Assembly (NCBI RefSeq): GCF_000787575.1
Contig: NW_012236524.1
Span: 914,859-978,858 of the forward strand
Length of the DNA: 64,000 bases
From: Acytostelium subglobosum LB1
Taxonomy: Eukaryota > Evosea > Eumycetozoa > Acytosteliales > Acytosteliaceae
Reading direction: 5' to 3'
Positions 6,001 through 64,000 of the stretch are shown here, piece after piece (position 1 is the first letter of the stretch; the number at the start of each line of letters is the position of its first letter). Made by a program: the position numbers and the translations under genes. The notes beneath the pieces are model-generated. The model did no database searches, was not told where the DNA came from, and saw nothing but the letters and a program-made list of their open reading frames with translations.

Positions 6001-7110
6001 TACTCATGCTCGACCTCCTTTGTCTCTGCGTCCAGACGCAAGATTGAGTCTCTGGTGATACCAAGCAACTTTGGTACAGGCTTCTTCTGTCCCTTAACAC
6101 GTTCCTATGATGATGCAGCAGTAAGAGGTTAGATGTTATGTCCTTTGTCCTTGATGTCTGTCAATCCATTACTACCCCAACATACCTTTGTCTGGAAGAA
6201 GGTGATACCGTATGTCTTGAGTGATCTGCACAGTTGGACGTATCTGAACTTGGAGTTGGACTCGGTCATACCGACCAGCTTTCTGAACTCCTTGTAGATG
6301 TCCTTCTCGGCGTCCTTCTTCTTGTGGTAGGAGGGTGGCATGTACTCCTTGATCTTCAAGTAGCCAGCCTTGTGCAGGTTGGTGTTGTGGTTGCCCAGTG
6401 AGATCTGGCACTGCAGGGCAGCAAACTGGATGGCCTCATCGTAGGTGCAAGGATGCGAACCCGAGACGATGGCGTCACGTGACTGTACGTAGACGAGATG
6501 GAGTTGGATTGGGTCGTCACGGTTGACGTTGAAGTCGTCGACGAAGAACTTCTTCTTGAGCAGCACGACGGCCTCGTCGCTGACGCCCTGCTCGTGGAGT
6601 GGCTGGGTGTGGTTGAGCCAGTCGGTCGTGGTGCCTGCACTAGTCTCGGCCTGCAGGGAGAACTCCTCATGGTTCTTGATACCTATTCTCTTTCCGACAA
6701 TCTCAATGATCTCGCCCACAGTCAAACTGTCATCGATCAGCAAGGTCTTGACAGTCTCATCCATCAATCTAACCTTGAGTGCTCTGTGCTTCTTCTTGTA
6801 ATCAATCTCATCCTAATATGTACAATCATGCATGTGTGTTAGACCATGATGCTGCTGCTACTGTTGCTGCATGTTGTTCACGACTTACATTCATCTTCAA
6901 GTCGTAGAACTGGAGTGGCTTGTCCAACTTTAACCAGCGAGCTGGACGCTTGCCTTCGAGGCCTGGTTGGAAGAGACCATGGTCCTCACCGCTGTCATTG
7001 ATTCTCTCTCTGATCTGTGCACAGGCCTCATGCACGAACATTGTTGGAGCAAACTTCATGGCCTTGACTTGATTGTCGCGGACAATCCTAATCTTTAGTG
7101 TCAACGACAT
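1..7110 (-). CDS. Talin (FERM plus rod), 3' end beyond the window
   Basis: Cytoskeletal adaptor linking membrane receptors and Rap signalling to F-actin at adhesion sites. Exons (complement): 7110-6889, 6812-6186, 6104-1, with GT-AG introns in phase 0. Exon 1 encodes the F0 ubiquitin-like domain (starts MSLTLKIRIV), exon 2 F1/F2, exon 3 F3 followed by a long alanine-rich helical rod. The last visible residues look like the start of the C-terminal I/LWEQ actin-binding domain, so about 2,317 residues are present and a few hundred are missing. D. discoideum has two talins (TalA, TalB); without the C-terminus they cannot be told apart. One base is extra near 2235-2245: the frame reading ...TKDANVHQ runs into a stop at 2121, while the family-like rod resumes as SVSTAVQQLL in another frame. 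A strong splice donor on the minus strand at 7278 suggests a 5'-UTR intron ending just before the start codon. Confidence 0.95.
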
Positions 7111-19364: not shown

Positions 19365-22300
19365 TCGGCAACATGTAGAAGAAGCTGATAAACTGGTGCG
19401 AATGTAACTTGAAGTTTAGCTTGCTGAATGAGTCATCTTCACCATTGATGGTGTCACAGACGATGATGACAAACACGACTACAGGATCAACACCAAGCCC
19501 ATCGACTTCGCCAGCATCCAGCAATCAATCACTGGGCCGCATCGACCATTTGCTGCGCCCAGTCTACCAGCAGGCACCAACGCCACTGATTCGCGAGGTC
19601 TATCCGATCCACAACGCTGCCGAGCAGATCGATATGAACATCAGCTACAGCAACGTGTTGTACTTCTATCCCAAGTCGGTAAACCTCACCAACTTCAAGA
19701 GCGACAAGGGCAGCAGCGCACGCAACATCTTCTTGGAGATCAAGTTGCTGGAGGACGACACCAACGTCAACAACTCTGGCATGAAGGCTGTGTTTGGCAC
19801 GTCGACGTCGCCGTTGCTGACGCGCCGCTTCTACACGACAGTCGTGTACCACAACAAGAAGCCCGAGTTCACTGACGAGATCAAGATCAATCTGCCGTCG
19901 CATCTGACTCCCAACCACCACCTGCTCGTCACCTTCTACCATCTGGGCTGTCGCCCATCCAAGAAGAACGAGAAGCCTGAGGTGTGTCTGGGTCACTGCG
20001 CCATTAGGTTGTTTGAGGAGGACAAGGTCATCGCTGACGGCAAGTACCGCAAGCCTGTGGCCACAGTCTTCCCACCCAAGTACCTGGACATGGAGCTGAA
20101 GGAGCAGACCAACTCCAAGATGTGGGTCGACAACAAGAAGCCCATCTTCAAGTTCCGCACTCGCGTCCTCTCCACAGTGTACCCACAAGACCCCGTGCTG
20201 GCCATCATTCTCAAGGATGGAGCCGAGGGCGATCACAACCTTCTGATCGAGACATTCAAGAGGGTGAGCGAGGTGCCCAACCCGCTCAAGCTGCGCTTCT
20301 TCCCCGTGCTGGCACGAATCATCTTCAAGTGCATCGTGTCGCTGTCCAAAGAGCTTCAGAAGCACGCACTGATCGCGCTCATCACCATTGTGGATGCCGT
20401 CAGCAAAGAGATGAAGGCTGAGGAGCGTCTGACATCATTCGCCACCTACATCCACAACAACAGCTCTTCGAGCAACACTCTTCACGAGTCCCTTGTCCTC
20501 ACCTGGATCCAACTTCTCGAGTCCAAAGACGAGAAGTCAGTCCTCTCACTCCAATACGCCTGGTTCCTATTCGCCGTCATCAAGAAGTCAATGATCATTG
20601 ATATCGAGATCAAAGGATTGTTGAGTATGTATATACATTGGGATCATTCCAGCCTCGCTCAATCACTCACTTACTCACTTACTCAATCACTCCGTCAAAC
20701 AAATAGAGAATGGACGTAATAGAAGCAACAGGTTCTCAGAGGAGTATCTGCAGAAGTTCAAGACATTGTTTGAGTTGCTCTTGATTCAATTGAAGCAGGT
20801 GTACAGCAAGAGTATCATTGCCAAGTCTTTCATCACCAGTGTAGCATACTTTATCAACGATATGATGGACATCATGAACAGAGGATTCCTATTCCGTCTG
20901 GTATGTATTGATATTGATTGATCTGAACAATGGGCCATCACTAACCATTCATTCGACCAATCCAATCCACACATAGATCAACTCATATGTCACTGGACTC
21001 GATTGTTCCAACACAGTAATGGAGATGGTCAACCTGAAGTACACATTCCTCAAGGTGCTGGCGTCATCAGACTCATTCATTGCACTCAATCTTCCAACAT
21101 CTTACCAATTCCCCAACATTGTAGACTGTTACCAACACTTCTAGTTCGTATCCATTCACTCAATCAATCACTCCAACTCACTCAACTAACTCTCTTCATT
21201 CCCTACTTGTAGCAAGAAGCATTACTTGATTGGATTGATATTGCAAGAGGTTGCGAGTTCAGTTGGTGCAGCAGAGAAGGAGATGCGTTTGAAGGCCATT
21301 TCATCACTCAAGGAGATTATGGCACGCTTCGACACTAGCTCATACTTCAACACGCCACAGATACGTGAGAGGATTGCTTCACTCTACTTCCCCTACGTCC
21401 TCATCGTCATTGACAACTTTGAGTTGATCTCCAAGTTTGACAAGGTCGAGACCAAGAACTGGCTGGCTTGCTTCATCTACGTCGTCAAGAACCTGATCAA
21501 CAGCAGCACAAACATCATCGCCGATTGGTGGAAGAAGGAGGTGCAAAAGAAGAAAATCGTCACCTTCTTCAACATCCTCTCGACCTGCGCCAACATGTTT
21601 GACTACATGGAGCTGTCCAAGGAGGTGGTCGAGAGCAGCAGCAGCACGGATAAGCCCGACTCGTCGGCAGTGGACTCGCCCAAGGGCAAGGGCAAGGTCT
21701 CTATCAAGAAGGCCAAGGGCAACCCCGAGGCTACCAAGATGATGTTGGAGCAGTACACAAACAACCTGTCGGGCAAGAGTGAGCGCTCCATCTCGGTGAC
21801 CCACTCGTCCGACCGTCTCACTCAGACACCTGGCGGCATGCGCGCCTTTAGTAACTCGCTGCCCATGCTCAATGTTGAGCCGGCCATCACGGCTGAGGTG
21901 ATGGAGGTCATGGCTGGAAACCTGGCACACGAGGTCTCCATGACGATACTGAACTGCATCATTATCTACATCAAGGAGTTCAAGGACGAGCTGCACAGCC
22001 TGAGCAAGCCTCTGCCTGCCAACTCTCTGTTGCAGAAGCCGTCAGACAAGCAGACCGTGACACTCGAGCGACTGTTTAAGAGTCTCATCGTGTTGATCAA
22101 GAAGGAGCAGTCGCACGCCTTCATCAAGGTGGCGTTCCAATCGATCGCATCCATACTCACCGAGTTCAAGACAGCAGTGTTCAAGAACAACAACTCGATC
22201 TGCGCCGACTTGACTCCAGAGGTCTTCAAGTACTTCTCCAAGAACCACGCACCCAATCGCCAGGCTGCCGCCACACTGGCCTTCCTGATGATCCTGAACA

Positions 22301-24139
22301 ACCTGAAGGAGTGCGGTCAGTTCTCTCGTATGAAGCTGCAATCCACAGTGTCCATCTCCAAGATCGTAAGCGACAGCACTCTGACCGACTTTGAGTACCT
22401 ATTCGCTTGTCTCGAGTCCATCACCAAGTTTGTCAAGCAGTACTGCAACAACAACTTGCTGAGGAGTAGTGCACCATCCTTCACCAACTCCGCGGCATCC
22501 GGACCAGCCTCCTCGCCCACCAAGGTCAACCCGCTGCTCAAGTCCTCCCCTGTACAGCCCGTCAGTCAGCCATCGGCACCCCGTCAGCAGGCGCCCATCA
22601 GCCAGCAAATCGAGGAGCTGCGCGATCGTCTGTTTGGCGTGATCAAGAACAGCGTCAAGATCAAGCAGCACGACTATGATCCCGAGATGAAGGCCGACCT
22701 CTTCCACCAGATGTCCAACACCTTCTCCGAGAGTCCCGATCTGCGCATCACCTGGCTCAAGAGTTTGGCCAACTTCCTTCACCAGACACAGAACTGGGAG
22801 GAGGCCGCCCAGACCTACATCATCACAGCGGCCCTCGTCTGTGGCTATCTCAAGCAGCTGAAGCGTTTCCCCAAGAACCTGGCTGTGGACTTCTCCAACG
22901 TGTCGCCAAACATCACCTCCGACCTGATCCTGCCGGACTCTTCGTTGCTCGAGGCGGTCGAGGGTGAAGTGTGCCAGCTGGTCGACTTCACTGAGCCAGG
23001 CTTCATCGCTCTGCTCAAGGATGCCATCCAGGAGCTCAAGAGAGGTTCATTCTTTGAGTCCTGTGTTGAGACCTACCAGCTGTTGCTGCCAACCTTCCAG
23101 AAGAACAGAGAGTGGAAGCGCCAGTACGAGTGTTACTCAGAGCTGGTCATGCTTTGCAACCAGATGATTTCAGAGAGCACGATCAATCAACGTCTGTTTG
23201 CCAACTACTACCGTGTGGCGTTCTACGGCGAGAGTCTGATACCCGAGATGCACAACAAGGAGTACATCTACAAGGAGTTGAACTTTGTGCGTCTGTCCGA
23301 GCTGTCCGATCGTCTGCAGAAGCAGTATGGCACCAAGTTTGGCGAGGACAAGATCCACCTTTTGCCCAACAACAAGCCCGTGGACAAGGGCTCGCTCAAT
23401 CCACAGCACATCTACTTCCAGATCGTCTCTGTCGATCCATACCTGCTGCCCGAGGAGCTAAAGGAGCGTGTATCCACCTTTGACCAAAACACCAATCTGA
23501 GTGAGTATCATCATCCAGAGTGTTACCGCGTGGCGTGGACAATCCAACCAACTAACATGACTTTCTCACGACTATACAGATAAGTTCATCTTTGAGGTAC
23601 CATTCACCAAGTCTGGCAAGGCTCACAGTGAGAATATTACAGAGCAGTGGAAGAGGAAGACTGTGCTGACGACAGAGGCATACTTCCCATACCTGAAGAA
23701 GCGATTGTTGATTGTAAAGAAGGAGGAGATTGAGTTGACGCCAATCGAAGCATCGTATGAGATCATCCAGAAGAAGACACAGGCACTGCGCGCAGAGCTC
23801 AAGTCTGCGCTGCCCAACACCAAGACACTCCAGATCAATCTGCAGGGTTCATTGCTGCTGCAGGTGAATGCCGGCCCACTGGCCATCGCCAGCTCGTTCC
23901 TGGGCGGCACGGACTTTGAGAAGTACAACGCCGAGCACTACACCAAGCTGCAAGAGTCCTACAAGGAGTTCACCAATGCTCTGGCATTCTCTCTCAAGCT
24001 CAACAAGAACTTAACCAAGGCCGAAGACACCAATGGACTGGAGTTGCAGGCACAGTTGGAGAAGGGCTACAAGGAGTTCCGTGACAAGATCAAGCAGTAT
24101 GTCAATCTAGATCAGACCGAGGATCAGAACAACAACTAG
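17667..24139 (+). CDS. DOCK-family (Zizimin-like) Rho/Rac guanine nucleotide exchange factor
   Basis: Activates Rac/Cdc42-type GTPases to control actin and motility. Exons: 17667-18562, 18640-18811, 18902-19255, 19379-20624, 20707-20900, 20977-21143, 21213-23500, 23580-24139; all phases join, giving 1,958 residues. The N-terminus (about 120 residues) is S/G/N low complexity. A DHR1/C2-like domain lies near residues 567-690 (NVLYFYPKSVNL ... ARNIFLEIKLLEDD ... HHLLVTFYHLGCR). The DHR2 catalytic domain occupies about residues 1,500-1,958 (WEEAAQTYIITAALV, EYIYKELNFVRLSELSDRLQ, PHIYFQIVSVDP-like block, SLLLQVNAGPLAIASSFLG). The FYKKHYLIGLIL motif spans the exon 6-7 junction and confirms that splice. 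The layout resembles the C/D (Zizimin) DOCKs; D. discoideum has several (zizA-D), and the exact orthologue is not determinable here. Confidence 0.9.
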
Positions 24140-31321: not shown

Positions 31322-31676
31322 TGTAATAAATCATTATGAGATTAAAATATAGAGTGGATCAAGTGCTCAACATCTTTATTATAACAATATAGTTGTGAAC
31401 CGAAATTTCTTAAAATATCTAGAGATGAAGATATTTTGGTTTGGTGGATTATTAGAAAAATAGATTGATTGATTATATTTGACTGTTTGTACAGAAGGTT
31501 TATCTTATCTAATTAATAGTTAAAGAAATAAAAATAAGTAAATATATAGATTAGCTTTGAAACTATTAGAATATACTTATAATATTCAATAGAAATTATA
31601 TTATCAATTGAAAACCATGTCTCCAAGTTGATCAAAAGTACACAGAAAAAACTCAGCTAGAGATAAATAAAAAGTA

Positions 31677-31749
31677 CGCCCAAAGGGGGGCTCGAACCCC
31701 CGACCACACGGTTAAGAGCCGTGCGCTCTACCGACTGAGCTATCCGGGC
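31677..31749 (-). tRNA. tRNA-Lys (CTT)
   Basis: A complete 73-nt cloverleaf on the minus strand: acceptor GCCCGGA with TTTGGGC, D-arm GCTC...GAGC, anticodon arm CACGG-CTCTTAA-CCGTG (anticodon CTT), T-arm GGGGG-TTCGAGC-CCCCC, discriminator G. No intron. The promoter A- and B-boxes are internal and intact (GGTTCGAGCC). Confidence 0.95.
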
Positions 31750-31775
31750 AACTGTGAAGGGAATACATTTTTCAT

Positions 31776-34334: not shown

Positions 34335-34410
34335 TCAATTTAGTTCAACCATACATAACTTATAACATTATTGTTCAAATAAGTTGTAGTAGTAATAGTT
34401 AGTTAGTAGT

Positions 34411-37400
34411 ATGAGACAAGATATACTTCAATATCATTGGTTTAAGCTCAATGTTGTTGTTGATCAACAACATGAAGGTGATGATCAAGGAGTGACACTT
34501 GAACATCCTCAGTTACAACATCCAGGCGATACACTCAAGCATTACTTGTTTGTTTATAGATTAGACAAGTACAATAGATTGAGATACAAAGATCTATCAT
34601 CAGATAGTGACAGACAACAATATCTATGTTATCCAACTGGTAGACCAGAGACATTGACTGCATTCACAATCAAACAACCTTCGATCTCAAACAACAACAC
34701 TGCATCATCATCAACTACATCAACTTTACCAAATGCATATGTATCGACATCGTTTGCAAAGAGATTCAGATTGGAGCAGGATGATATTATACATGTCAAA
34801 GTGACACCAGTTTCGGCCGTCACATTGGACAGGGTGGTACTGTTGTCAAATGATCAGCTGTCATTCAACAGTGCAGTGATGGATGATAGTGCTAGCGGTG
34901 AGACTTCAACGAGGAAGAAGTATCAAGCCAATCAATCATTCAAGAGTCATTTGATTGAAAAGTCCGTCTTGTTCAATCAAGGATGTTCATTGCAGATTGA
35001 TAATGGACGATTATCATTCGATGTGATGGAGTGTAGTCCAATGCTCCAAGGTTCAATCGACTCTACGACGACCATCATTGTTGTTGGACCCGATGAAGCA
35101 TCACAACTTCGCAAGCAACAACAAGGAGAAGTCGCATCACCAATCAATCAATCAATCACACAACAACAACAACAACCAGCATCATCTTTGGCATCGAGCA
35201 ATCTTAGGATATCAAGGTTCATCATTAAGCCATTACCATCACCACTGTTCCACCTCAACCCCAACGCCAACAGCACGTTGTTGGACAACAAGGTCACACT
35301 TAGACAGTTACCAACCATCTCACACGACATCTTCTTGTCGCTGGTTGATCCCACCTACAACTACCTCTGCGACGCAATCGTAACACTGGAAACACTAAAA
35401 CAATATAAACTGTACCATGGCAATCAGATCAAACTAAAGTCATTGGTCAACGACAGCGCCAACAAGAACATTGTTGTCAAGATCTTCTCGATCATGGCCT
35501 TTGACGACGATCAATCATCCCTGGTCAAACAGCTCCAGATCGAGGATGGCTATCTCTACCTCCCACCTCTCTCCCTATTCAATCTTGGCATCGACCCCAA
35601 GGCAGCGTTGTCCATCACGCCACTCGGCCCATTGCTCTGTTCGACAAACAAGACTTCATCGACGACGATGCAAGCTGAGCTCTCGAGCAAGACAGCATTC
35701 CCGACGGCCAGCAAGATGATCATCTCACGAGTCAAGTGCAATCGATCGAGTGGTCTCGCCACGTACACACATCAGCTGGGTCAGTATTTTGACACGGTGA
35801 GGATCATGAAGGAAGGTGATTTGTTTGCTATCCCCTTGGATTACTCGGATGAGTCGACAACCACGACAACAACTCACAAATCATCGATCTTCTTCCGTGT
35901 CGAGTCCATGCAGGCATCGGTCACTCCTGATGAGGATGGCGACAATCTATGTGTTGTGGACAAGGAAAAGACCACACTCATACAGGAGGGCTCGTGCCAA
36001 TCACTCCTTCCCGGTCAATTCCAATCGTTCTACAGTCGCGGCGAGCAGACCGACTTCATTGTCTACGATCAAGAGTTCAAGAGGCTTGTCGAGCTCACAC
36101 TGCCATTCTTCCACACGTTCGACTTCAACTTCAACTGCACCATATTGGTCAAGGGCGCACCAGGCGTGGGCAAGCGCACACTCCTGCGACAGGTGTCCAA
36201 CGTGCTCGGACTGCACATATTCGAGATCGATTGCTATCAGCTGTACAGCTTCAATGAGATGGAGAAGGAGTTCAATCTGAAGCGCATATTGGAGGAGGCC
36301 GCCGAGGCCGTACCATGTATGCTGTTGCTGTCCAACTTTGACGTGCTGGAGCAATCGCCATCGTCCATTCAACAGGAGAAGAAGGAGTCCAACATCCCCA
36401 ATATACTAAAGGATGTCATGCAAACCATCAATGACAAACTATCAATGATGGAAACCACTTTGACCATGAACTCTGGCTCAAAGGGATCAATATCCACAAC
36501 ACCTCCTCCACCTCATCCATTCATTGTTGCTGCCACAGTCAAGTCCACAGATGACATGTCTGGAAAGCTTAGAAGTTGGTTCAAATATGAGATAGCACTT
36601 GATGTAAGTCCATCACTGGATTCATTCCAATAAATCAATCAAACTAACACAATCGATCAATCACTTGTAGGCACCTGATGAGACACAAAGACTAAAGTTG
36701 TTGAACAACATATTCAAGACTATACCGATCAATCACTCTGTGTCTTTGAAGAATGTGGCGATGAGGACTGCTTCATTCCTGCCACTCAATCTAAAGAACT
36801 TGGCCGAAAGGTCTGGCATGCGTGCTCTAAAGAGAGTCCTGAATACAGAGAGGCATGTATCCCCTCTTCCTACTCATCCACCACCTCATCCCATCCTATA
36901 CTAACATGTTATGAACCACGACGACACAGATCAATACTACCAGAGGAGATATGTAACTGTGGAGTCAATATAATCAATGATGATATTTCTGATGCATTGA
37001 CCGAGATGCAGGGCTATCAATCATCGTCGATTGGTGCTCCAAAGATTCCAAATGTGAAGTGGGACGATGTTGGTGGCCTCGCCTCTGTAAAGAGTGAGAT
37101 CATGGACACGATTCAACTGCCGTTGGAGAACCCACATCTCTTTGCCTCGGGCATTGGCAAGCGCTCGGGCATCCTGTTCTACGGCCCGCCTGGCACAGGC
37201 AAGACCCTGCTGGCCAAGGCCATCGCCACAGAGTGTGCGCTCAACTTCCTCAGCGTCAAGGGACCCGAGCTGATCAATATGTACATTGGAGAGAGTGAGA
37301 AGAACATTCGAGATATATTCAACAAAGCTCGACAGGCCAAGCCATGCATCATCTTCTTTGATGAGTTGGACTCGCTTGCACCAGCACGTGGAAATGGCGC

Positions 37401-40033: not shown

Positions 40034-40975
40034 TTATTTAGGTAACTCTACACCTTCAAAGTACTTGTGATTTAGAGCTGCCTGTGCGGTAATTCTTTGA
40101 CTTGGATCATATTGGAGCATCCTTTGAAGGAGGTCCAATCCATTGGCATCCAATCCGTGAACGATGGATGATAGTGGGTGAGGTGGATGCACGGGGAAGT
40201 CCGGCTTGTACTCTGGCAACTCCTTGATCGTTGGCCATATCGCTTCGTTGGGTGTGCCCATAATCTTAAATATTCTGAACAACTGATCGCTTGTTCCAGA
40301 GCCCGGGAACAATGGTCTTCCAGTGACCATCTCTGCAAATATACATCCTGCTGACCATATATCGATTGGAGTCGAGTACTTCCTGGAGCCCATCAATACA
40401 TCCGGTGCTCTGTACCAGAGTGTGACGACCTCGTGCGAGTACGTCCTCACTGGAATGCCAAATGCTCTGGCCAGACCAAAGTCTGCCAGCTTCAACTCGC
40501 CTTTCCTATTAATCAACAGATTCTGTGGCTTGAGATCTCTGTGCAACACTCTGTGCTCGTGACAGAATGCCACACCTCGCAGCAACTGATACAAGAATGA
40601 CTTTATCGTTGGCTTGGCAATCTCTCCGCCACACTCATCCATGTACTTCTTAAGATCCTGATCAAGGTATTCAAATACCAATGTCAACTTCCTCTCTGTA
40701 TGAATTACATCGTACAATCTGTTGGATGGATGATGTTAGTTCGACTTGCATCGCTTCACATCATATCTCACCATCACATACCTGACAATGTTTGGATGCT
40801 TCAGTTCCTTCAACAATGATATCTCTCTGATTGCTGTGCAGGGCACTCCTTCGTCTTCAGAGTCCAAACGTATCCGTTTGAGAGCTACAATATCTCCAGT
40901 GTCACGATTCTTTGCCTTGTAGACGATACCATATGTACCCTCTCCTAGCTTCTCAATCTTTGCGTATTTCTCCAT
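40034..40975 (-). CDS. cdk5: Cyclin-dependent kinase 5 (PCTAIRE-type)
   Basis: Ser/Thr kinase. Exons (complement) 40975-40782 and 40718-40034 give 292 residues, exactly the CDK5 length. Visible: G-loop [12 protein letters not shown], catalytic Lys in VALKRIRLD, cyclin-binding helix [37 protein letters not shown]-loop [14 protein letters not shown] with Ser in the activating position, and [18 protein letters not shown]. Metazoan CDK5 has PSSALRE in the cyclin helix, while the D. discoideum protein has PCTAIRE as here. In D. discoideum Cdk5 supports growth and differentiation. The start codon is the only Met at the kinase N-terminus ([13 protein letters not shown]). Confidence 0.95.
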
Positions 40976-42984: not shown

Positions 42985-45900
42985 ATGATGAATAGTAATA
43001 TAGAGTACATTGATGTTGACAAGGATGATGATAATGATGTGGTACTGGAAGAATTAGACTTTGAGTTTGATATTGATGTTGATGTTGGACAGAATGTAAA
43101 GAATGAACAACAGGGAGAACAAGGAGAGATACAGATTGATATTGAGGAAAACGATAATGATGATGGCGATTCGATAACTGTATCACCAATGTTTCCAAAG
43201 ACTCCATTGCAACCACAGCCACATCAACATGGAAGTCCAGATATTGACTCATTCTTTGGTAGCAGTGGTGATACTCCTATTATACCCAAGGATCAACAAT
43301 TCCAACCTCCACAACCACCGACATCATTATCAACAACCAATGATATGTCGATGGGTCCACCACCAGATACTACCCACATTGAATTGGATGACTTTGAGTT
43401 TGACCTGGATGATGGTGTTTGCACTCCAGCTGGATCATCAATGACCACCACACACAATGGTAATTGTTCAGTTTGCAACCAACTATTCCATGTATATCTA
43501 ACACCTATTTAATGCAGAGACACCATTACTACCTGAAAGACCAATTCACCAGAATGACCTAGATTCATTCATAGGTATCCTGTCAAGGGATACCATTCAC
43601 AAGGCCAACAAAAGTACTACCCCAAACATTGGGGCTGCTGTGGCATACACACCCAAACATCAGTTCTTCAACCAAGTCCACTACAACATCCACACTCATC
43701 TGATCAAATACAACTCATCACTATTGGCACTTCTACCAACAATATCGCATCAACCAATAGTTTCACTCACCATATCCAATCTACTACATCAACATCACCA
43801 GCGTAGACATCTTTGGATATCATCCAACTTGGGTGACCAACAATATCTTGAATCAATATTCTCCAAAGAGGCACCGCCAGAGTCTTTCCAGGTGATCAGC
43901 AATCAACATCAGTCGGTCCGATCTGGTACCCTAATAGTATATATCCAACGTGATGTCTTGGCATTCATGATCGCCAATAACAAGTATGTATATCTATATT
44001 CACCCAATAAATCAATTATACTGACTTATATGAATGAATCAATGATAGGATCACAGTTTCGAACTACCAATATATCTATTATGACGCATGTGCAAATGAT
44101 ACCATGTTGTTGGATGAGAAGGAAAGGTTCCAGAAGTTGACACAAGGTGCAGGCTCAATCATTTTGTTGTCTAACCAACATCCATCGTAAGTTAAAAATC
44201 CACCTCATTGTCGTGGAACTAGGCTGACTAACAACAACAATCAAACACTCACTTTAGGGACTACTCAATGTTTTGGAGATGCTTCAAGATAGAGGTATGA
44301 ATGAATGACCGACCGAAGCACTACAATTTGACTAACCGTTATCCAAATAGAATGTATTCACATTTGTAATGAATGAGAACTTGTATCCAAGACTCAAGGA
44401 TACAATTACATTGGAGATCAATGGTATGAATGTTTATGGTGTGGACTCTTAGCTTGGCCATTAGTTAACCATCCCATAATCCATTAGTTGCAATCAAGAC
44501 CATCATTGGTGAGATTGAGAGGTGTATCATGGACATATCATATCGACTACAATCCAAGCAGGCAAATATCCAACCTTTGAAATGTCTTCCACTCAGGTCA
44601 ATGCTTCCAGGGTACTCTCAAGATCAAGATGTTAGACATTTCCAATATCTGAACAATCTACTACTTCGACTGATCAATCAAGGAATTAGTATAACAAATG
44701 AGTATATCAAGTCACATCCTATTGATCACCAGACTGGTAATTACTTGGAACATGATAGGTGGATAGCAGGTCAATCACTAACTGAATCATTCAATCAATC
44801 TATCAAATATAGATTCTATGAAAAGGTTGTTCGAGACCATTGATATGAATTGTTCAGAGATTGAGGCTGGCATCTTGAACGATCACATCAAGTATGACAA
44901 ACTATTGAGTATTGTCAACAAACACTTCAAGCAATATGCAGAGAATCCAGTATCCCCACTGAAGGTAGGATTGATGAACACCGTCCTTCAGGCTAATCAA
45001 TCTGACCATTACCAATTCCAACATCTAGATATTGATCCTTGTAAAGGACGCCACATCAATTGGAATGATTACAAAGATTATTCAAAAGACTGAAGGAATA
45101 GCAATATATCCATTGACCACTCAATCAATGTATGTACAACTATATTTGTTTGTTCCTTGATGGATTGATCCAGAGACCTGACATGTCATATTGATTTGGA
45201 AAGGAATCAATCCATACCACTTAGAGCCAATTGTATAATATGTTCACTGGATGATATATGTGGACAACAACGATCAATCAACTGGAAGGGTTACTCTGTC
45301 ATCATTGAGTTTGACTACTTCACTCATGATCAATGCCAATATCTATCGACCTACAATGTATACAATCAAGCCAAGTATGTGCACTCATTCATTCATCCAA
45401 ACAATCAACCAAATCAACTAACTTACAAGTTCAATCAACTAAAGGATTTACAACTTTGTGTTGGACATCAACTCTGTTGCCATTGAGTTTGGAGAGGACA
45501 GACAGTTCAATGAGATGCATCATCTACTTCGAGATATATACTTTCCATGCCACAATGATGATGTGATAAGGAAGAATACGTATGAGCCAGTCAACATCAA
45601 GAAGATGTCACTCAACAAACAACTGGAACAACTTGTTAGAAAGCAGACAAAGGACACCTTGAAGCCTGACAACAATCACAACACGGTGCTTGACAAAGAG
45701 ACATCACTACACCTATATCATCACATATCATTGGTCGCTGGAGAGTCTATATTGAAGCGCACACATATGATCAATCATCTGGAGAAGGAGTACAATATGA
45801 CATTGATCGAGCGAACAGTCAAGAATGTGGACATTGTGTTTGACGAAAGAAATGGACTGATGGTGGTCGACCACTCCATGCGAATGGACAATGTCATTGA

Positions 45901-46774
45901 TGCATTGATAGAACTATCACTTCAATTCAATGTTGTATGGATCATCATTGAGATGGACGAGCACAAATTGTTCTCGGCACAGAGCAAAGATGCATGTCGT
46001 CAACTATCAAGCATCCTAAACTTCCTCCAATGCCGTGTGTACATTCGCTACACCTTCTCATATCAACAATCAGCCCTGTTGATCAGGGAGATCTGCGAGT
46101 CAATACCAAAGGATAATTCAACATGGGAGAATGTAAGTTGAAGTTAATCTTTCATTCAATCATTATTGATTGATCACTAACTTTTGATTGCAAAGTCACT
46201 GGAGACATGGTCAAACAGGAGATGGTTGATGGATTTGGAATCCAAGCATGAACGATTCCTAAATAGGATACCAGGATTCAATCCATTCTCTGCACAGTTG
46301 ATACTTACATGGACATCACTCGATCACATACTTTCATCAAACATTCAATCATTGCAGAATGAGTACAAATGGTTGAGTAACAAGTCATGGGTAAGTAATT
46401 GGTTACGCGACCACGATGAACAATAATAATAATATTGACTTGGGCCAAAATAATAGAGATACGCCACAAGGATATTAGGAATACCTGAGAGGATTGAGGA
46501 ACAACATACCAATCCAACTTCAACAACCAAGGTTGTAAAGAAGCCAAGGCTGACATTAACTGCCCCAACTCAGAAGCAACATCTTACATTGAAGCCTCAA
46601 CCACTATCACTTCAACCATCACTGGTACAACCTCCACATCCACAAATATCAACGACAGCCTCACAACAACCATCATCACATAGACAGACCACCAACCAAC
46701 GTCCAAGACTATCACTCAAACAAGTGGATCCTAAACAAACAAAGATTGATCAATACCTCAATAAAAGACAATGA
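42985..46774 (+). CDS. SHOC1/ZIP2-like protein (XPF-type nuclease fold plus HhH), meiotic crossover family
   Basis: Twelve exons: 42985-43459, 43518-43983, 44049-44186, 44258-44294, 44351-44423, 44488-44769, 44813-44964, 45029-45129, 45174-45374, 45445-46132, 46196-46390, 46457-46774; every phase joins, giving 1,041 residues. The N-terminus is acidic (LEELDFEFDIDVDV). Residues about 640-870 read like an XPF-type nuclease core without the catalytic ERK motif (VDIVFDERNGLMVVDH ... NVVWIIIEMDEHKLF). At about 890-935 a helix-hairpin-helix follows (FLNRIPGFNPFSAQLIL), matching the C-terminal part of SHOC1 as I remember it. SHOC1/Zip2 pairs with Spo16/ERCC1-like partners to bind branched DNA and promote meiotic crossovers. 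The tail is P/Q/T-rich and ends in QTKIDQYLNK, a PIP-box-like motif. Alternatives: another XPF paralogue such as a FANCM/FAAP24-type protein. Confidence 0.72.
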
Positions 46775-47827
46775 GTCCGAGAGTGAGCCAGTAAGTGATT
46801 TGGCGCCAAATTTTGCATTATGGCTCATATCAGTTGTTTACCCAATAATGATCACATCAAGTGTATGTTATGTTTATTATAGTTACCCGCCATAACTTTG
46901 AGTTATAACTATTCCAATGAACCCATCAATGATCTTGTTATCTACGTCATACATCCAACCAAACAAACACATTCATTCACATACACATCAACACAAAGAA
47001 ATAAAATCAATTATGATTTTTAAAAAGTGATGTTGTTGTTGTTGTTGTTCTAGTTGTTGGAAACACTGAAGGAGGGTTGTTTATTGTTGTTCGTGTTGTG
47101 ACTTCTCAACAGCTAATACTGTAATTTATTAAGATTACTAACTAATCAATCAAGGTTTCAAAAGTATACATATATTAAATCATTCATTACTTGATATATA
47201 TAGGTAAGATTCATACTTATACAACTACAACAATAATTACAACAACAATCACAACAATGAAAACAATGACAACAATGACAGGATCACTCTCATATCTTAT
47301 GCAACGATAAGTTACTGCATAAACATCTCACACTCATTCATTCTTTCAATCTACAACAGTTCGATGTTCATTCGAATCGACGCGAAGTCCCCAGTGAACA
47401 ACATAAACACTCATACACTCATACATCACATCACATACATACACATATTCATACATACACATACATTCATACGCACATACATATATATCTTATCCTCTCT
47501 ACATACTTGTCGTCTCTTTTACTACCGCATTAGGACATTTATCTTTGGACTCGGCAACTGTTGGCAGTCTGATAACTGTCACACGGACAACCCCCTTTGT
47601 TCATTTTTTTGAATTCAAATTCGAACAACAACTGCTTCATTCATTCCCACACAAACACGAACACTCAACACAACCAACCAAACAAGTGCACTAACATTGT
47701 TCCTCAGTTCAGTTCAGTTTAGTTCATTCAGATCCGAGAGAGTTGAGCTCATTGAGTGAACAACAATCGCATCGAGCGTAATCTCATCTATATATACATT
47801 CATATATATATCAACATCAATCAATCA
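46775..47827. other. Spacer and leader upstream of the Myb gene
   Basis: 1.05 kb. Includes a GTT repeat at 47031-47050, ACAA-rich stretches, and from 47340 on a C/A-rich leader with CATACA repeats. The frame is open upstream of the Myb ATG but has no earlier ATG. No other gene recognised. Confidence 0.5.
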
Positions 47828-50628
47828 ATGGTCAGAAGCCAACATACTACAGTCAATCAACAATCGACTGCAGCGACGGCAGCTGCAGGATTCCAAAAGA
47901 TAACAGCCTCAACCAATATGAACAACAACAATAGTAATATACCATCATCTATGATGAATGGACATAATGTAGCGGGTCATGCAAGTTTGGCAACAATACC
48001 AATGCATCACAATGGTGGTGTGACGCCATTCAGTGATATGATCAATCACTTACAGAGATCCAATTTTGCCACCAATGGTAATGGCAATGGCAATGGCAAT
48101 GGTAGTGGTCCATTTTCATCATCTCCACCATTCCCGCTATACCCTCCAGTCAATGGGATGTCCCTGCCACCCATCTCAATGGCCACGGTCACCAATGGTA
48201 TTGGTGCCGCCACAACTACCACCCCTGGCAGGTCCATGTCAATTGACGACGTCAACAATAACAACAACAATAACTACAACATGACCATCAATGACAATGA
48301 TAATGATAATGAGGAAGACGACGAATATTATGAAGACAATGATAATGATGACGATGACGCAAGCAGCACAACAAGCACTAGCACAGGCGCAGGTACGGCC
48401 ACAGGCAGCACAGGTTCCAAGGGCAAGAGGTCCAGCACACGCATAGTTTGGACACCGTTCGATGACCAGGTACTCAAGCAGGCGGTCGACGAGTACAATC
48501 ATAGGAATTGGAAAAAGGTGGCTGAGCGTCTGCCTGGTCGCACCGAGGTGCAATGTCATCACCGATATCAAAAGCTGATGATGACCATCACAGTCAAGGG
48601 CTCATGGACTCGCGAGGAAGACGAACTGATCAAGAAACTTGTAAACATATACGGTCCAAAGAAGTGGTCTGAGATTGCTCTTCATCTCAAGGGTCGCTTG
48701 GGCAAGCAATGTCGAGAGAGGTAAGTCCTTGGTCCTTGCTTGGCATATCCAAGATCACTCACTCACTCAATCAATCACATTAGATGGCACAATCACTTGA
48801 ATCCAAACATCAAGAGAGATGCATGGACTGAAGAGGAGGATAGGATCATTGGTGAGAAGCACGCAGAGTATGGAAACAAATGGGCAGAGATCGCCAAGTT
48901 CTTGCCGGGCAGAACGGACAATGCCATAAAGAATCATTACAACTCATCAATGAAGCGAACAAAGAAGGGTCAACGACAGGACGCCAGGACCAACAACAAG
49001 AAAGACAACTCAACCAAGAAGCGCAAGTCAACATCTACATCAGAAGACGGTCATCATCAAGCCAATCCATCAGTTGGCAACGATCCACACCCAATGGGCG
49101 ACCCACTCTCCCTGGACATTGCATCACTCCAACAATACATCCTTTCAGGCAACTCGCCAAAGTCAATGTATGTACCATCCTCCAACATACTCATCGTCCA
49201 GTTACTAACTCTTTCCAAAGGCCCAAGGCACCATCACCTTTGAAGCTAGTATTCAACACACCTGGCCACGGTAACAACTCACACAACTATGTTACCGGTC
49301 AACACGTTGACCTACATCAACTGGTATCTCCCATCAAGCTATATTCAAACTCTGGACTACTCAAGAAGAAGGCGAAGATTGACTTTTCACCATCGGTAAG
49401 TCGGGGAATTGTCGCGTGACGCGTGACATGGGAGGCTGAGGCCATGAGCTCATCGTCTAACACACACGCGCTCAACCAGAAACAAACGCCAGAGCATCAA
49501 CAACAACATCAACTACATCAACAACAACAACAATATCCAGACAATAGTATATTCTATTCACCTATTCAGAGGGCACATGACAGGTCGACAATGGCCGCAG
49601 ACATATCAGAGTTCTCACCATTCAAGTCAATGTTTGGTACACCAAGTGGATCGGGACAAGTCTACGACTATGATCCAATGAAGACAGCAATGTTCAGTCC
49701 TTATAAATCACCAATACATCATCAACAACAACAGCATCAACAGTACTCACCTCTATACCACCTGCCGCACAACAACGGACTTTTATCATCATCATCATCA
49801 TCACCATCACCAAAGAGTAGACACCAGTTGCCAACGCCATCGTCACTGCACGTCCTTCCCACGCCTACCTGGAGCAACAACACAAGCGGCAGCAACGCCA
49901 ACAACAATGGTATACTCAATGGTGACATGGACGCACATCGTTCAAAGCTTGGCATCCACATGACCGACAGAGGCGTCGACAAAAACCAGCTCAGCACAAT
50001 CAACTCGAAGCTCAGAGGTGAGCCCAACTACAACAACATCAGTGGACTCAATGACAACTACTTTGTACCAATGACACCTTTCAAGGACACGACATCCAGC
50101 TTTGTGGACTCATTGTCGCTCTCTGACATTGGCTCGATGCGCTCATCAATCTTGTCAACGCCCGGATCATCAAGGGACAAGTCGCGCATGTCTAACAAGC
50201 CTCACCTGCCTCTATCATTCAGCAGTAGCAGCAACAACAGCAGCTGTGTGAGTGGGCCAGCTTCATCAACCAGTTTCACTATGGACGATCAATCATCGTT
50301 GTACATAATGGAGTCGAACAACAACATCAGCAACATCAGCAACAACAGCAACAACTTATCCCTTATCCAACACACCACTACCACTTCCAACTCGAATGAT
50401 TGTTCATTCGAGGCTTTGCGACGACTGAGTAATGACTCTAAACAATCGATATTCAATAAGGCCAGGAGGATATTGGAGAGCACCAATGACACCAACAGGA
50501 GTCAGGACCGTATCAACATCTCTGACATCCAAGTTCCATACACTCCAATATCCACATCACATCACTATCTTGTGACACCAATCACAAAGGTACCCTTTCC
50601 AACCAACACCATCGCCACAGTATCTTGA
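47828..50628 (+). CDS. Three-repeat (R1R2R3) Myb transcription factor
   Basis: Nuclear DNA-binding regulator of the c-Myb/3R-Myb class. Exons 47828-48720, 48784-49167, 49221-49395, 49441-50628 give 879 residues. After about 200 residues of N/G/D low complexity come three SANT/Myb repeats: R1 [21 protein letters not shown]2 [20 protein letters not shown] with [18 protein letters not shown]3 [20 protein letters not shown] with [17 protein letters not shown]. The R2-R3 junction falls at a splice site inside the RERW codon, which confirms the intron. A basic nuclear-localisation-like tail follows, then S/N/Q-rich sequence. Short phrases such as [10 protein letters not shown] and [13 protein letters not shown] recur, like the conserved C-terminal motifs of animal 3R-Mybs that regulate cell-cycle genes; the role here is inferred. 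Intron 3 is only 45 nt. Confidence 0.9.
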
Positions 50629-58639: not shown

Positions 58640-60516
58640 TTAGTCATCCTTTGGAGGAGTGAGTTCATTCTCCACTGGACGCAGGAATTCGTTAATGATG
58701 CATTGTACCAGTTCGGCCAACTCTTGCTGCACGTGTGCCTTGTCTTGACCAATCATCTCGACGTAGTACTTTAACTTGGGCTCGGTGCCACTGCCACGGA
58801 GTGTTGCAATAGCACCGTTTTTGAAGTAAAAGGTGATCATCTGTGTGGATGTGGACACTGGCAGACGCGCCTTCTTGTCGGGGAAGCCATCGTCATAGTC
58901 GATGGTGAGGTCGCGCACACGCTCAATCTCAAAGCGACCGCACTTGGTGGGGAAGTTGCGGTTGTTGCGTATCTTGTTGAAGATGGCAACCATCTTGGGC
59001 GGCTCATAGCAGAAGAAGTAGCGGTTGCGACTAATGTGGTAGCCGTAGCGCTTGTAGAGCGACTCGAGGTGGTCCTCGCAGGAGCTGCCGTTGGCGTAGT
59101 AGGACAGGGCAAGTTCGGCAAAGATTGCTGCACAACGCACGCCGTCCTTGTCCAGCGACACATCTCCGTACAGGAAGCCGATGGCCTCCTCGTAAGCGAA
59201 CAGGAAGTGCAATCCTTCGGCGTCCATTACCTCGCGAGCACGATTGCCCACCCATTTGAAGCCAGTCAGTGTCTCCTCGCAACGGTATCCATCCTTCTTG
59301 GCCATGGTCTTGAGCATGGCGGATGATACAGCCGTGTTGATCATGAAGAACTTCTCGGCTGGGGTGTCGGGATGGCTGCGACGGGCATTCTGCCAGGCCC
59401 AATCAGCCAACAACACTCCAATCTCATTGCCGTTGAATACCTTCCATGTGCCATCCTTTAATCGCTCAGCCACAGCCAGTCTGTCTGCGTCTGGATCATT
59501 GGCCAGGATCAGACGGCTGCCATTGGCTTCGGCCGTCTCGATTGAGAGCTTCAGTGCGCCCTTGCCCTCCTCTGGGTTTGGGAATGTGACGGTGGGGAAT
59601 GCTGGGTCGGGCTGGTACTGCTGTGCCACTGGGATGAAAGGTGGAAGCTTGAATGCTTCGAATGCCATCTTGGTGTACTCTCCTCCAACTCCATGCATGG
59701 CGGTGTAGATGATCTTCTCGTTAGCAAACTTGACGTGTGAGGCAACAGAGTACTGTGCGATCTTTGTATTGTAGCTCGACACTATCCTGTCAAGAGGGTC
59801 CTCCACCAAAGGACCACTCAGCAACTGATCGACATTAATCTCCCAGGGTTCCAGATTGAGATCAATCAACTTTGCAATGCCCTTGTCATGTGGAGTATTA
59901 ATCTGACAACCATTCTCCCAGTACACCTTATAGCCATTATCATCCTTTGGGTTATGTGATGCAGTTATCATCACACCAATACTTGCCTTTAAGTCGGTAA
60001 CAGCAAAGGCCTAGCATCAATTGATTGATTAATTGATTGATTGATTGAATGAATGAATGAATGAGTGTCAATGAATGATTGAATGAATGAATGAATGAGT
60101 GAGTGAGTGATACATACGACATAAGGTGTTGGTACGACTTTAGAGAATAGGTACACTTTGTAACCCTTTGAGAGGAATGTGGCAGCAGTGTACTTGGCAA
60201 ACTCTTTAGAGTTGTACCTTCCATCATATCCAATGACCACACCAGACTTGATAGCATTTGGAATGGTGTCAATGACGTACAAACACAGACCTTGACTTGC
60301 TTGTATCACTGTAAGATCATTCATACATGAGAAACCAGCTTTCATAGGACCTCTTAGACCAGCTGTACCAAAAGCTATCCTATTCTCCAATCTTGCAGTC
60401 AATTCCTTCACATCATTTTGTTCAACCAACTCTTGAATCTCTGCTCTTGTCTTTGGGTTCTTATCCCATTTCAACCAATCTTGTGCCAATTTATTTATAC
60501 TAGTAGTAGTACTCAT
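58640..60516 (-). CDS. pgmB: Phosphoglucomutase/phosphopentomutase (PGM2 type)
   Basis: Interconverts sugar 1- and 5/6-phosphates (deoxyribose/ribose or glucose phosphates). Exons (complement) 60516-60118 and 60010-58640 give 589 residues, near the PGM2 length. Motifs in order: sugar-binding N-terminal [13 protein letters not shown], phosphoserine loop [19 protein letters not shown] (catalytic Ser), metal-binding loop [22 protein letters not shown] specificity loop, [10 protein letters not shown] and phosphate-binding [13 protein letters not shown]. The GTAGLRG-bearing N-terminus marks the PGM2/PGM2L1 branch rather than classical PGM1. The intron (107 nt) is almost pure AATC/CATT repeat on the coding strand. 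Convergent with the DUF155 gene. Confidence 0.95.
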
Positions 60517-60904: not shown

Positions 60905-63283
60905 ATGGCCAGGTTGAATAGAAAGATCAAACATTTCTTCAATAGTTTAATACACTTTGAAGTTAAAGAAGGATATAGTCTATTTTTTATATTGACATTA
61001 TGTACATTCTTATTTATTGGTGTATTACTTAGTTATTTATCATATAATCATTATATTCAGAAGGAGATGAGTATGATCGAGTTGGATATGGACAGGAATT
61101 GTCATCAAATTATACATAACATCGAAGCTACATCCTATGGTCTATTCTCAAAGGTTGAGTCTGTAAAAGTATGTATTTATATCAATTGTATCCCCTATAA
61201 TTCTTGTCCAAACAAAGAATTATATATTAATATATAATTATTATTAGGGACTATTCTATTCTAAACCTAAATTCAATCAAGATGACTTTGAAACTTACTT
61301 GAAGAGTACTTCAAATCCCTTTAAAGGAATGCGAACATTCTGGATACCAAAGATACAGCACAGCGAGAGAGCTAGATTCGAAAACCATTTTAATGTTACT
61401 TTGACCGAGTATGATTATATCTTGAATCGATTCATCTCCTCCAGAGAGAAGAAGATATATTTCCCAATACTATACATGTATCCAAACTACCATGATATGG
61501 ATATGTTATCTGTAAGTTCCAAACAAACAAATGAATGAAGAATGGGAAAATCTAACAATATTGATATCATTAGGGTATATTGCGAGGATTTGATGTATCT
61601 TCATCGATTACACATCATGGTATTGAAGATACTGTTACAAACAATACGATGGCTTTGGGTCTGACGGACAGATATATATTCAATAATCTTAGATTGAAGA
61701 TGGGTATAATTGCAATTGTACCAATCTTCAAGACTATATTTCCACCTGCAGCCAGTGAACGACTTGATCACTGTGCAGGTGTTGCCACTGGAGTATTGGA
61801 GACACAGGAGTTGTTTAGAGGTGCAAGGAAGAATGTAGAGGATGAGAAATGGTTCACAATATTTCTCGTTGACAACAAAGGTGCAATTTTCTATCAACAT
61901 GATGAATACTCATTCGTCAATGAGAGTCATATCTACACCTCAAATCACTTTCAAGGGTATGTATTAGTTAGTGAATTCAATTCTGTCAATCAATCAATCA
62001 TACTCACACATCATCACAGACGTTTCCAAAATGTAGCCAGGTTTGAAGTTGCCAACACCGAGCTGAAGATGATTACATTTGCAGCAATGGAATATGAGAA
62101 TGAGAAGAGAACATCATCACCTATTCTCATAGCCGTTTCACTGATATTGTTGGACCTTTTCATCTTCCTCTACGTACTGGAGCAGAGAAGAAGGAAAAAC
62201 ATCAATGACCGAATCATCAAAGAGCGCAGTCTGCTACTCAATCGTATTCTCCCAGAGGAGGTCTCACAACAATTGGAGAATGGTGAAGAGGTTGTTGCCA
62301 AGCTTTCAAACAATGCTGCCGTCTTCTTCATGGACATTGCAGGATTCACCAGTTACTCCTCCACTCACACCCCTCAAGAGATCATCATTGTACTAAAGAG
62401 GATATTCTCTTTGATTGATCGAGCCTGCTGTGATCACTATGTCGAGAAGATCAAGACCATTGGAGATGCCTACATGGCTGTGACCGGTCTATCAAACACA
62501 CAGTGCAAGTTGAGCATGAAGAGTAACACAGAGATAATGCTAGAGTTCAGTTTGGATATATTGGAGATGCTAAAAGAGGAACTCAGCAGCATGGTTGGCC
62601 TCAAGGTGCGCATTGGTATCCACTGTGGACCCATCATCTCTGGTGTGATCTCAGGATCCAAGCCGCACTTCGACATTTGGGGCGACACTGTCAATGTTGC
62701 CTCACGTATGGAGTCTACTGGAATACCAGGATTTGTTCATGTCTCAGACCGTGTGTACCAGCTTACTCAAGACAGGTTCCATTTCTCCGAACACCCAGAA
62801 ACAATCAACGTCAAGGGCAAAGGAAGAATGAGAACATGGTTCCTACTGCGCAAGAAGGGAAGGAAGAGCATTGAGAACTTGGACATGGACAATATCAGAT
62901 TGAGACAGAGTATGGACTCGGCAGGATCACCAATCTATCATCAAGAACTGTCACCAAAGAGAATCGTCAAGAACATCGACTATTTGGATTTGGTCCAACA
63001 TCAGCCTTCACCAATACTGTTATCCCAACAACAGGCAAAGAGACATCATCATCTAGCCAAGAGAGCATCGAGGAATTATCGTCCACAGAACATTGTGGAT
63101 ATTAGTTTCAATCACATTGAGAGTCCTCCAATTCATTCCCAAAATTTACATCACCATTCATCTTCGCGTAGTGTTCCAAACATATCGCCTTCACTCAAGT
63201 CCACCCAGATTGGACTTCCAACAATGTCCATCAACTCTGAGTGGAGCTCATCAGATGACAGTCTGACTGGAAATTGGCTTTGA
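60905..63283 (+). CDS. acgA: CHASE-domain adenylyl cyclase, AcgA-like
   Basis: Makes cAMP; in D. discoideum ACG is the osmosensing cyclase of spores that holds germination and activates PKA. Exons 60905-61168, 61248-61511, 61574-61956, 62020-63283 give 724 residues. Layout: TM1 (SLFFILTLCTFLFIGVLLSYL, about residues 25-45), an extracellular CHASE domain (TFWIPKIQHSERARFENHFN, YPILYMYP-like block, FKTIFPPAASERL...GVATG), TM2 (ILIAVSLILLDLFIFLYVLE, about 339-357), then a class III cyclase domain with FMDIAGFT and IGDAYMAVTG metal-site regions and FDIWGDTVNVASRME. A low-complexity tail rich in H, S and Q follows. The catalytic domain looks intact. Slightly shorter than the D. discoideum protein. 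Polyadenylation signal AATAAA is at the stop. Confidence 0.9.
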
Positions 63284-63494: not shown

Positions 63495-63566
63495 TGCTCT
63501 GTCATCTAAGGGTTAGGATCCAGGACTCTGAATCCTGTCATCTGAGTTCGAATCTCAGCAGGGCAA
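63495..63566 (+). tRNA. tRNA-Gln (CTG)
   Basis: A 72-nt cloverleaf: acceptor TGCTCTG with CAGGGCA, anticodon arm CAGGA-CTCTGAA-TCCTG (anticodon CTG), T-arm CTGAG-TTCGAAT-CTCAG, discriminator A. The B-box GAGTTCGAATC is intact and a TTTT run follows at 63572. No intron. Confidence 0.9.
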
Positions 63567-64000
63567 CACTCTTTTGTCTCTCCAGCTTGAGATATAAAAT
63601 AAGGAACTTCCAGGGTTCTAACAAACGAGTGAATTTGACATCAAAAAAACCGAAACGAGCGATACAGTTACTAACTGTTTTTCGTTCTGAATAAGTCCTT
63701 AGCTAGACTCTACACAGTCAATCAATCGTCGCTCGAGGTCGAGCGTCGATACACTAAGGTTACAGGGCAACATGGGACTTGACAGTGTTTTAGCGAGGTT
63801 CGCCCCGATGAACACGGTCGCCCCTCCCCATCGCGACTCGTTCTACGAATTGCGCATCTTCTTCCCAGGCGTCGCCTTACTACCAGACGACTACCTCAAG
63901 AAGCTCAAGCTCATACTACGACTGTTCAGGTCGTACCCTTCGTCATCTGCCCCCACGAGAAAGAGCAAACATGTCCGCGGCCTCACCGTCGAGGGCAAAG
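63567..64000 (+). mobile_element. Possible tRNA-targeted retroelement, 5' part
   Basis: From 63772 an ATG frame (76 codons, open to the window end) reads MGLDSVLARFAPMNTV ... YLKKLKLILRLFRSYPSSS. It is much GC-richer than its surroundings and uses codons such as CGC, CGA and TCG freely, unlike the host genes here. It starts about 205 bases after a tRNA gene, and dictyostelid TRE non-LTR retrotransposons and some LTR elements insert at set distances from tRNA genes (TRE3 downstream). The 150 bases before the ATG contain a palindrome CGCTCGAGGTCGAGCG (63730-63745). No reverse transcriptase or LTR is visible within the window, so the class is unproven; a host gene is also possible. Confidence 0.4.
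63772..64000 (+). CDS. Unknown GC-rich ORF, cut by the window end
   Basis: 76 codons from an ATG at 63772, no stop before the window end. Contains LRIFFPGVALLPDDYLKKLK and then a basic K/R stretch. No family recognised; base composition and position beside tRNA-Gln suggest mobile-element origin, as noted for the enclosing feature. Confidence 0.5.
   Translation, partial: MGLDSVLARFAPMNTVAPPHRDSFYELRIFFPGVALLPDDYLKKLKLILRLFRSYPSSSAPTRKSKHVRGLTVEGK

Follow-up and report, generated by a model that had tools for sequence, protein, structure and literature searches.

We analysed a stretch of 64,000 nucleotides from Acytostelium subglobosum LB1 (contig NW_012236524.1, positions 914,859 to 978,858 of the forward strand), hereafter the window, and identified a 12-exon gene at 42985..46774 (+) that very likely encodes a dictyostelid member of the SHOC1/Zip2 family of meiotic crossover factors. 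This assignment rests on a match to the Pfam family PF17825 (DUF5587) above its curated cut-off, on a single locus for this profile in the genome and on negative shuffle and reversed-sequence controls. The same genome encodes MSH4-, MSH5- and MLH3-like genes, and our searches recovered no Spo11. The dictyostelid origin of the DNA, proposed from the sequence in a preliminary description, is borne out by at least 150 Dicty_CTDC repeats in the genome (150 of 298 candidates were scored), whereas none was found in 14 control genomes, which are prokaryotes as far as named.

Family assignment

The search of 24,736 families with hmmscan showed that PF17825 passes its curated cut-off (25 bits) in four of the seven constructs containing the core, with scores of 31.5, 31.7, 32.7 and 31.2 bits and E-values of 1.8e-8 to 4.9e-8. 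The match to the profile is located as follows.

45680..46360 (+), one intron included: PF17825, profile positions 854-1084 of 1449

Exon 10 alone scored 19.1 bits and the spliced exons 10-12 scored 31.5 bits. Joining exons 11-12 thus added about 12 bits, as the exon model predicts, which supports membership of the SHOC1/Zip2 family. Moreover, a six-frame search of the genome (30.7 Mb, 56 contigs) with PF17825 found a single locus, at 45680-46306 of the window, with 21.5 bits (25.5 bits with neighbouring pieces, E 3.1e-4); this match spans exons 10 and 11, translated in a single frame straight through the intron between them. Two shuffles and the reversed core gave no PF17825 match. The SHOC1/Zip2 assignment made in the preliminary description is therefore supported at the profile level.

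A chance match within a real but unrelated gene is highly improbable. Such a match would be in keeping with the single library family above its cut-off, in the shorter constructs only, but an E-value near 1e-8 among 24,736 families, the one genome locus and the negative controls argue against it. The position of the helix-hairpin-helix (HhH) region points in the same direction: a crude interpolation puts the first hairpin (residue 876) at about position 1049 of the 1,449 in the profile, and in human SHOC1 a construct lacking (HhH)2 stops at residue 1041 (PMC5962103), which supports the identity of PF17825 as SHOC1.

Gene model

The gene model was obtained from 11 donors chosen by hand from a scored list, followed by a search for acceptors. 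This search returned four chains, two of which stay open between the ATG at 42985 and the stop codon whose last base is 46774; the other two contain several stops each. Three residues where exon 11 begins set the open chains apart, and the longer one, a GT-AG gene of 1,024 residues, is used here. The 11 introns are 44-82 bases long (mean 65), with a GC content of 34.0% vs 39.9% in the exons.

We also applied a simple gene finder, with codon usage from long open reading frames of the same genome and splice weights from eight introns of this gene. At one intron penalty it recovered 12 exons, agreeing at 11/11 donors and 9/11 acceptors and placing the start one codon downstream. With a lower penalty the region was over-split into 16 exons, and a higher one retained the last three exons alone. 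The region scored 39.4 vs a maximum of 10.7 across 60 dinucleotide shuffles, and neither the opposite strand nor the reversed sequence yielded a gene. The splice weights derive from the same gene, and therefore this agreement backs a gene rather than each junction; the weak points are the acceptors of exons 2 and 9. Taken together, the acceptor search and the gene finder confirm that the gene is real and bear out the 12 in-phase exons described earlier. The span also stands, but the product has 1,024 residues, not the 1,041 first given. Exons 3 to 8 agree in the acceptor search and the gene finder.

42985..43459 (+): exon 1, acidic N-terminal tail, probably disordered; PIP-like SPDIDSFF at 43234-43257
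43518..43983 (+): exon 2, PIP-like QNDLDSFI at 43550-43573; the gene finder favours an acceptor before 43575
44049..44186 (+): exon 3
44258..44294 (+): exon 4
44351..44423 (+): exon 5
44488..44736 (+): exon 6
44813..44964 (+): exon 7
45047..45129 (+): exon 8
45174..45374 (+): exon 9, from the acceptor search; the gene finder favours an acceptor before 45225
45445..46132 (+): exon 10, XPF-like core with the start of the PF17825 match (45680) and VVDH (45863-45874) as the degenerate nuclease position
46196..46390 (+): exon 11, with RIPGFNPFSAQLIL (46259-46306) as the first helix-hairpin-helix
46457..46774 (+): exon 12, end of a likely second helix-hairpin-helix (by eye); the tail ends in PIP-like QTKIDQYL at 46736-46759

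Core, nuclease position and predicted fold

The hairpin RIPGFNPFSAQLIL and the string DERNGLMVVDH lie where the preliminary description placed them, and the order of the parts, an ERCC4-like core and then two helix-hairpin-helix motifs, is right by eye and by profile, with the second hairpin read by eye. As stated there, ERK is not seen: the string is absent from the whole 1,024-residue protein. In an alignment by eye, VVDH occupies the place of XPF's VERK, and the motif departs from GDXnERKX3D. The loss of ERK had also been described as shared with catalytically dead SHOC1, which needs correction. Human SHOC1 retains GEX22ERKX3E yet showed no nuclease activity, and the mouse protein has DRK (PMC5962103). 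Therefore, the missing motif fits SHOC1 but does not mark it.

AlphaFold2 without an alignment gave mixed alpha/beta order for exon 10 (162 residues), with a mean pLDDT of 72.2 and a pTM of 0.65; a longer read-through that includes intron residues reached 52.6 and 0.45, respectively. The XPF-like layout proposed earlier thus stands as an order of motifs, whereas this single-sequence structure prediction left the ERCC4 fold unconfirmed.

Several results weigh against the SHOC1/Zip2 assignment. Foldseek searches with both single-sequence models gave nothing at E <= 0.001 and no XPF-type chain among the 50 matches listed, which were unrelated alpha/beta folds of low TM-score. When set against the XPF of this genome, neither the hairpins (z 1.4) nor the core (z -0.2) scored significantly, and hhalign runs on single sequences gave no match to the five ERCC4 proteins, ERCC1 or RAD51. 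Pfam ERCC4 (PF02732) was unmatched at E <= 10 in every construct, and the sole other match at the hairpin was SAM_6, below its cut-off (E 0.0024-0.019). Exon 10 alone lies under the PF17825 cut-off, and the constructs of 1,024 and 621 residues did not match this profile at E <= 10, so that three of the seven core constructs did not pass; the long constructs were probably missed through HMMER's speed filters on long sequences, an explanation that is not proved. PF17825, annotated as DUF5587, is taken here to be the SHOC1 family. Finally, among the family searches of the genome described below, neither SPO16 nor MER3 was found. A search of NCBIfam gave no match to the gene product, and phmmer against the PDB returned two weak unrelated matches each for the full and the 621-residue protein. 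In terms of the profile comparison suggested in the preliminary description, Pfam gave PF17825 above its cut-off and left ERCC4 unmatched, and hhalign of single sequences with the genome's ERCC4 proteins gave nothing.

These results bear on an alternative in which the gene encodes a non-catalytic repair subunit of the XPF/MUS81 family (EME1-, FAAP24- or FANCM-like), its SHOC1 likeness being that of a shared degenerate ERCC4-(HhH)2 region. The domain order would be identical, and the fold searches do not separate the two. A genome-wide profile search found five ERCC4 loci, all on contigs other than the window's: XPF (by eye), a MUS81 with an EME1-MUS81 C-terminal domain, a MUS81-type gene carrying a SWIM zinc finger, and a pair of genes with ERCC4 only. 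These are named in part, so the place of EME1 or FAAP24 may be vacant, and no FANCM was identified. However, the product of our gene matched PF17825 and not PF02732, and five ERCC4 genes exist elsewhere; their open frames, some cut at the locus end, matched ERCC4 and not PF17825 at E <= 0.01. ERCC1 is present as an additional, separate gene. The SHOC1-like gene is thus distinct from the ordinary ERCC4 genes of this genome, and we regard a subunit of this kind as unlikely.

The four non-XPF ERCC4 genes lie on contigs C39, C55, C45 and C49, and the ERCC4-only pair has long low-complexity stretches. The joining of a SWIM zinc finger to MUS81 looks unusual.

Meiotic and mismatch-repair genes in the genome

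The genome was searched in six frames and exon-wise, with one search per family. Genes that are divergent or finely split may escape such searches, and therefore each single absence is weak.

The nine MutS_V matches represent four whole-domain genes and two split genes, and the latter read as MSH4 (contig C55; MutS II, III, IV and V) and MSH5 (contig C39; III and V), both among the genes that the preliminary description proposed to look for. Among solved structures, those closest to them are of MutS, MSH3 and MSH2; MutS_I had no match in the MSH4 and MSH5 models, whether trimmed near domain II or with longer N-termini. MutL_C identified two genes, one of which reads as PMS1 (DQHAADEKYNYE) and the other as MLH3 (DQHAVSERIKLE). 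The best PDB matches of the MLH3-like gene (C34:480348-480755, minus strand) are yeast-type MLH3 chains (E 3.6e-11). The PMS1-like gene (C48:998068-998346, minus strand) lies on the window's own contig, about 19 kb past the window end.

The search for Spo11 (TP6A_N) gave nothing at E <= 1. Among six matches to the Rad51 family, one at 439 bits reads as RAD51 and the others reach at most 104 bits; therefore, none is a second strong recombinase fit to be DMC1. The reported lack of Spo11 and Dmc1 in dictyostelids agrees with these searches. HOP1 was not found in the HORMA search, whose sole match reads by eye as MAD2. The Sec63 (PF02889) search recovered two genes with tandem domains and a third that carries a DnaJ-like stretch and reads by eye as SEC63 itself rather than MER3.

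For the partners of Zip2 the outcome was poorer. A search for a Spo16/ERCC1-like partner had been suggested: ERCC1 is present, but no SPO16 was shown. The one weak match to PF15162 in the genome (C36:434405, E 0.012) was rejected, because by eye it belongs to the reading frame of a TPR-like membrane protein, into whose intron it extends. PF08631 (SPO22/ZIP4) gave three sub-threshold matches, on contigs C36, C44 and C39, and also matched in two of the 14 control genomes. The first (C36:458091) falls in a TPR protein that has a match of NPHP3 type; the second locus, by eye, holds a stretch of WD repeats as well as a large gene of low complexity and bears no sign of Zip4. The third, C39:318174-318341 (minus strand), belongs to a long protein of low complexity, whose sole Pfam match at E <= 0.05 is SPO22, with 16.1 bits vs a cut-off of 27.5. 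The search for Zip4 thus ended with this sub-threshold match, a weak lead to a candidate, and no firm ZIP4.

Comparison with known systems and prior literature

The slime-mould protein resembles SHOC1 of mammals and Arabidopsis in that the PF17825 match covers the region of the human ERCC4-(HhH)2 core and in that canonical GDXnERKX3D is missing. It differs in reading VVDH (by eye) where the human protein keeps ERKX3E (PMC5962103), in the absence of a PF17825 match over residues 156-624, and perhaps in the PIP-like motifs in both tails. With budding yeast Zip2, part of the Zip2-Zip4-Spo16 (ZZS) complex, it would share an expected XPF-like non-catalytic core (PMC5962103); unlike that system, this genome yielded no Spo16 counterpart and, for Zip4, one sub-threshold lead. 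XPF, MUS81 and FANCM presumably have the same ERCC4-(HhH)2 layout, but the slime-mould protein lacks both a Pfam ERCC4 match and ERK, and XPF and MUS81 are encoded separately.

Much of this gene pattern is already in print. In Table 2 of a 2008 survey, Dictyostelium is marked for Msh4, Msh5, Mlh3, Hop2 and Mnd1 and blank for Spo11, Hop1, Dmc1, Mer3 and Rec8 (PMC2488364). Seven of these ten genes were checked here (Msh4, Msh5, Mlh3, Spo11, Hop1, Dmc1 and Mer3) and all agree. Dictyostelids are described as lacking Spo11 (PMC6763455; PMC9198077), and D. discoideum HEI10 is included in a published alignment (PMC3405992). Homologues of the plant SHOC1 core are reported from Fungi, Metazoa and Mycetozoa (PMC5962103, citing Macaisne 2008); a literature search for Dictyostelium together with SHOC1 brought up no Dictyostelium SHOC1. 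This kind of gene is thus already known, and ours is one more member. The preliminary description had seen in a ZMM-type protein an unusual route to crossover designation; a SHOC1-like gene in a genome where no Spo11 was found is indeed present, but the novelty was overstated, with both Mycetozoa SHOC1 (PMC5962103) and the gene pattern (PMC2488364) published.

The crossovers of social amoebae, frequent and often regularly spaced without Spo11, have been called mysterious (PMC6369745). Where no Spo11 can be recognised, SHOC1 beside MSH4, MSH5 and MLH3 would mean that the downstream half of the usual pathway, which protects crossovers, has been kept, and the puzzle would therefore narrow to how breaks start. 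By analogy, the XPF-like core and the helix-hairpin-helix pair would bind branched intermediates (D-loops and Holliday junctions) without cutting them. The SHOC1-like protein may hold these intermediates for an MSH4-MSH5 clamp and for a presumed MLH1-MLH3. The intermediates themselves would be made by RAD51 from non-Spo11 breaks and would end as class I crossovers. The fold of the protein, its binding to DNA, its partners and its meiotic expression and role are all inferred in this way.

The gene could instead be a true SHOC1 descendant that now serves general recombination repair rather than meiosis, retained together with MSH4-MSH5 and MLH3. The failure to find Spo11, Dmc1, Hop1, Mer3 and SPO16, together with the uncertain ZIP4, would fit such a role, which we consider possible, though a good deal less probable than not.

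PIP-like motifs in the tails

The presumably disordered tails of the SHOC1-like protein contain three motifs, SPDIDSFF, QNDLDSFI and QTKIDQYL, which fit the pattern [QS]xx[IL]D[SQ][FY][FIL]. They resemble PCNA-binding (PIP) boxes, each missing one canonical residue, and a strict PIP box has no match anywhere in the protein. The regular expression for the three motifs was composed after they had been seen, and its 0/2000 matches in shuffles are therefore no test. A plainer pattern starting with Q has two matches, equalled in 4.5% of shuffles, and one that allows other first residues has one match, equalled in 34%. QNDLDSFI hangs, moreover, on the uncertain acceptor of exon 2, and the gene finder's choice (before 43575) would remove it. 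The motifs, picked out post hoc, may serve only as a lead.

If the motifs did act, a wider scheme could be drawn, in which a reduced dictyostelid class I pathway (SHOC1, MSH4-MSH5, MLH3, HEI10 and RAD51) would operate without Spo11, Dmc1, Hop1, Mer3 or a recognised SPO16, and the PIP-like motifs would tether SHOC1 via PCNA, so that lesions linked to replication, or spontaneous ones, could become sites of crossover designation. We hold this scheme to be quite improbable.

Neighbouring genes

Ten neighbouring frames of the window were scanned with Pfam; eight were matched, none of them as a meiosis gene. The identified neighbours (proteins by Pfam) and two tRNA genes are the following.

2124-6104 (-): talin
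19379-23580 (+): DOCK-type exchange factor
31676-31750 (-): tRNA-Lys(CTT)
34399-36630 (+): PEX6
40037-40735 (-): protein kinase
47756-48721 (+): Myb
58643-60010 (-): phosphoglucomutase/phosphomannomutase
61574-63280 (+): adenylate/guanylate cyclase
63495-63567 (+): tRNA-Gln(CTG)

The stretch of the talin gene (window positions 1-6000) has a GC content of 57-59%, vs 33-53% in the remaining 2-kb steps.
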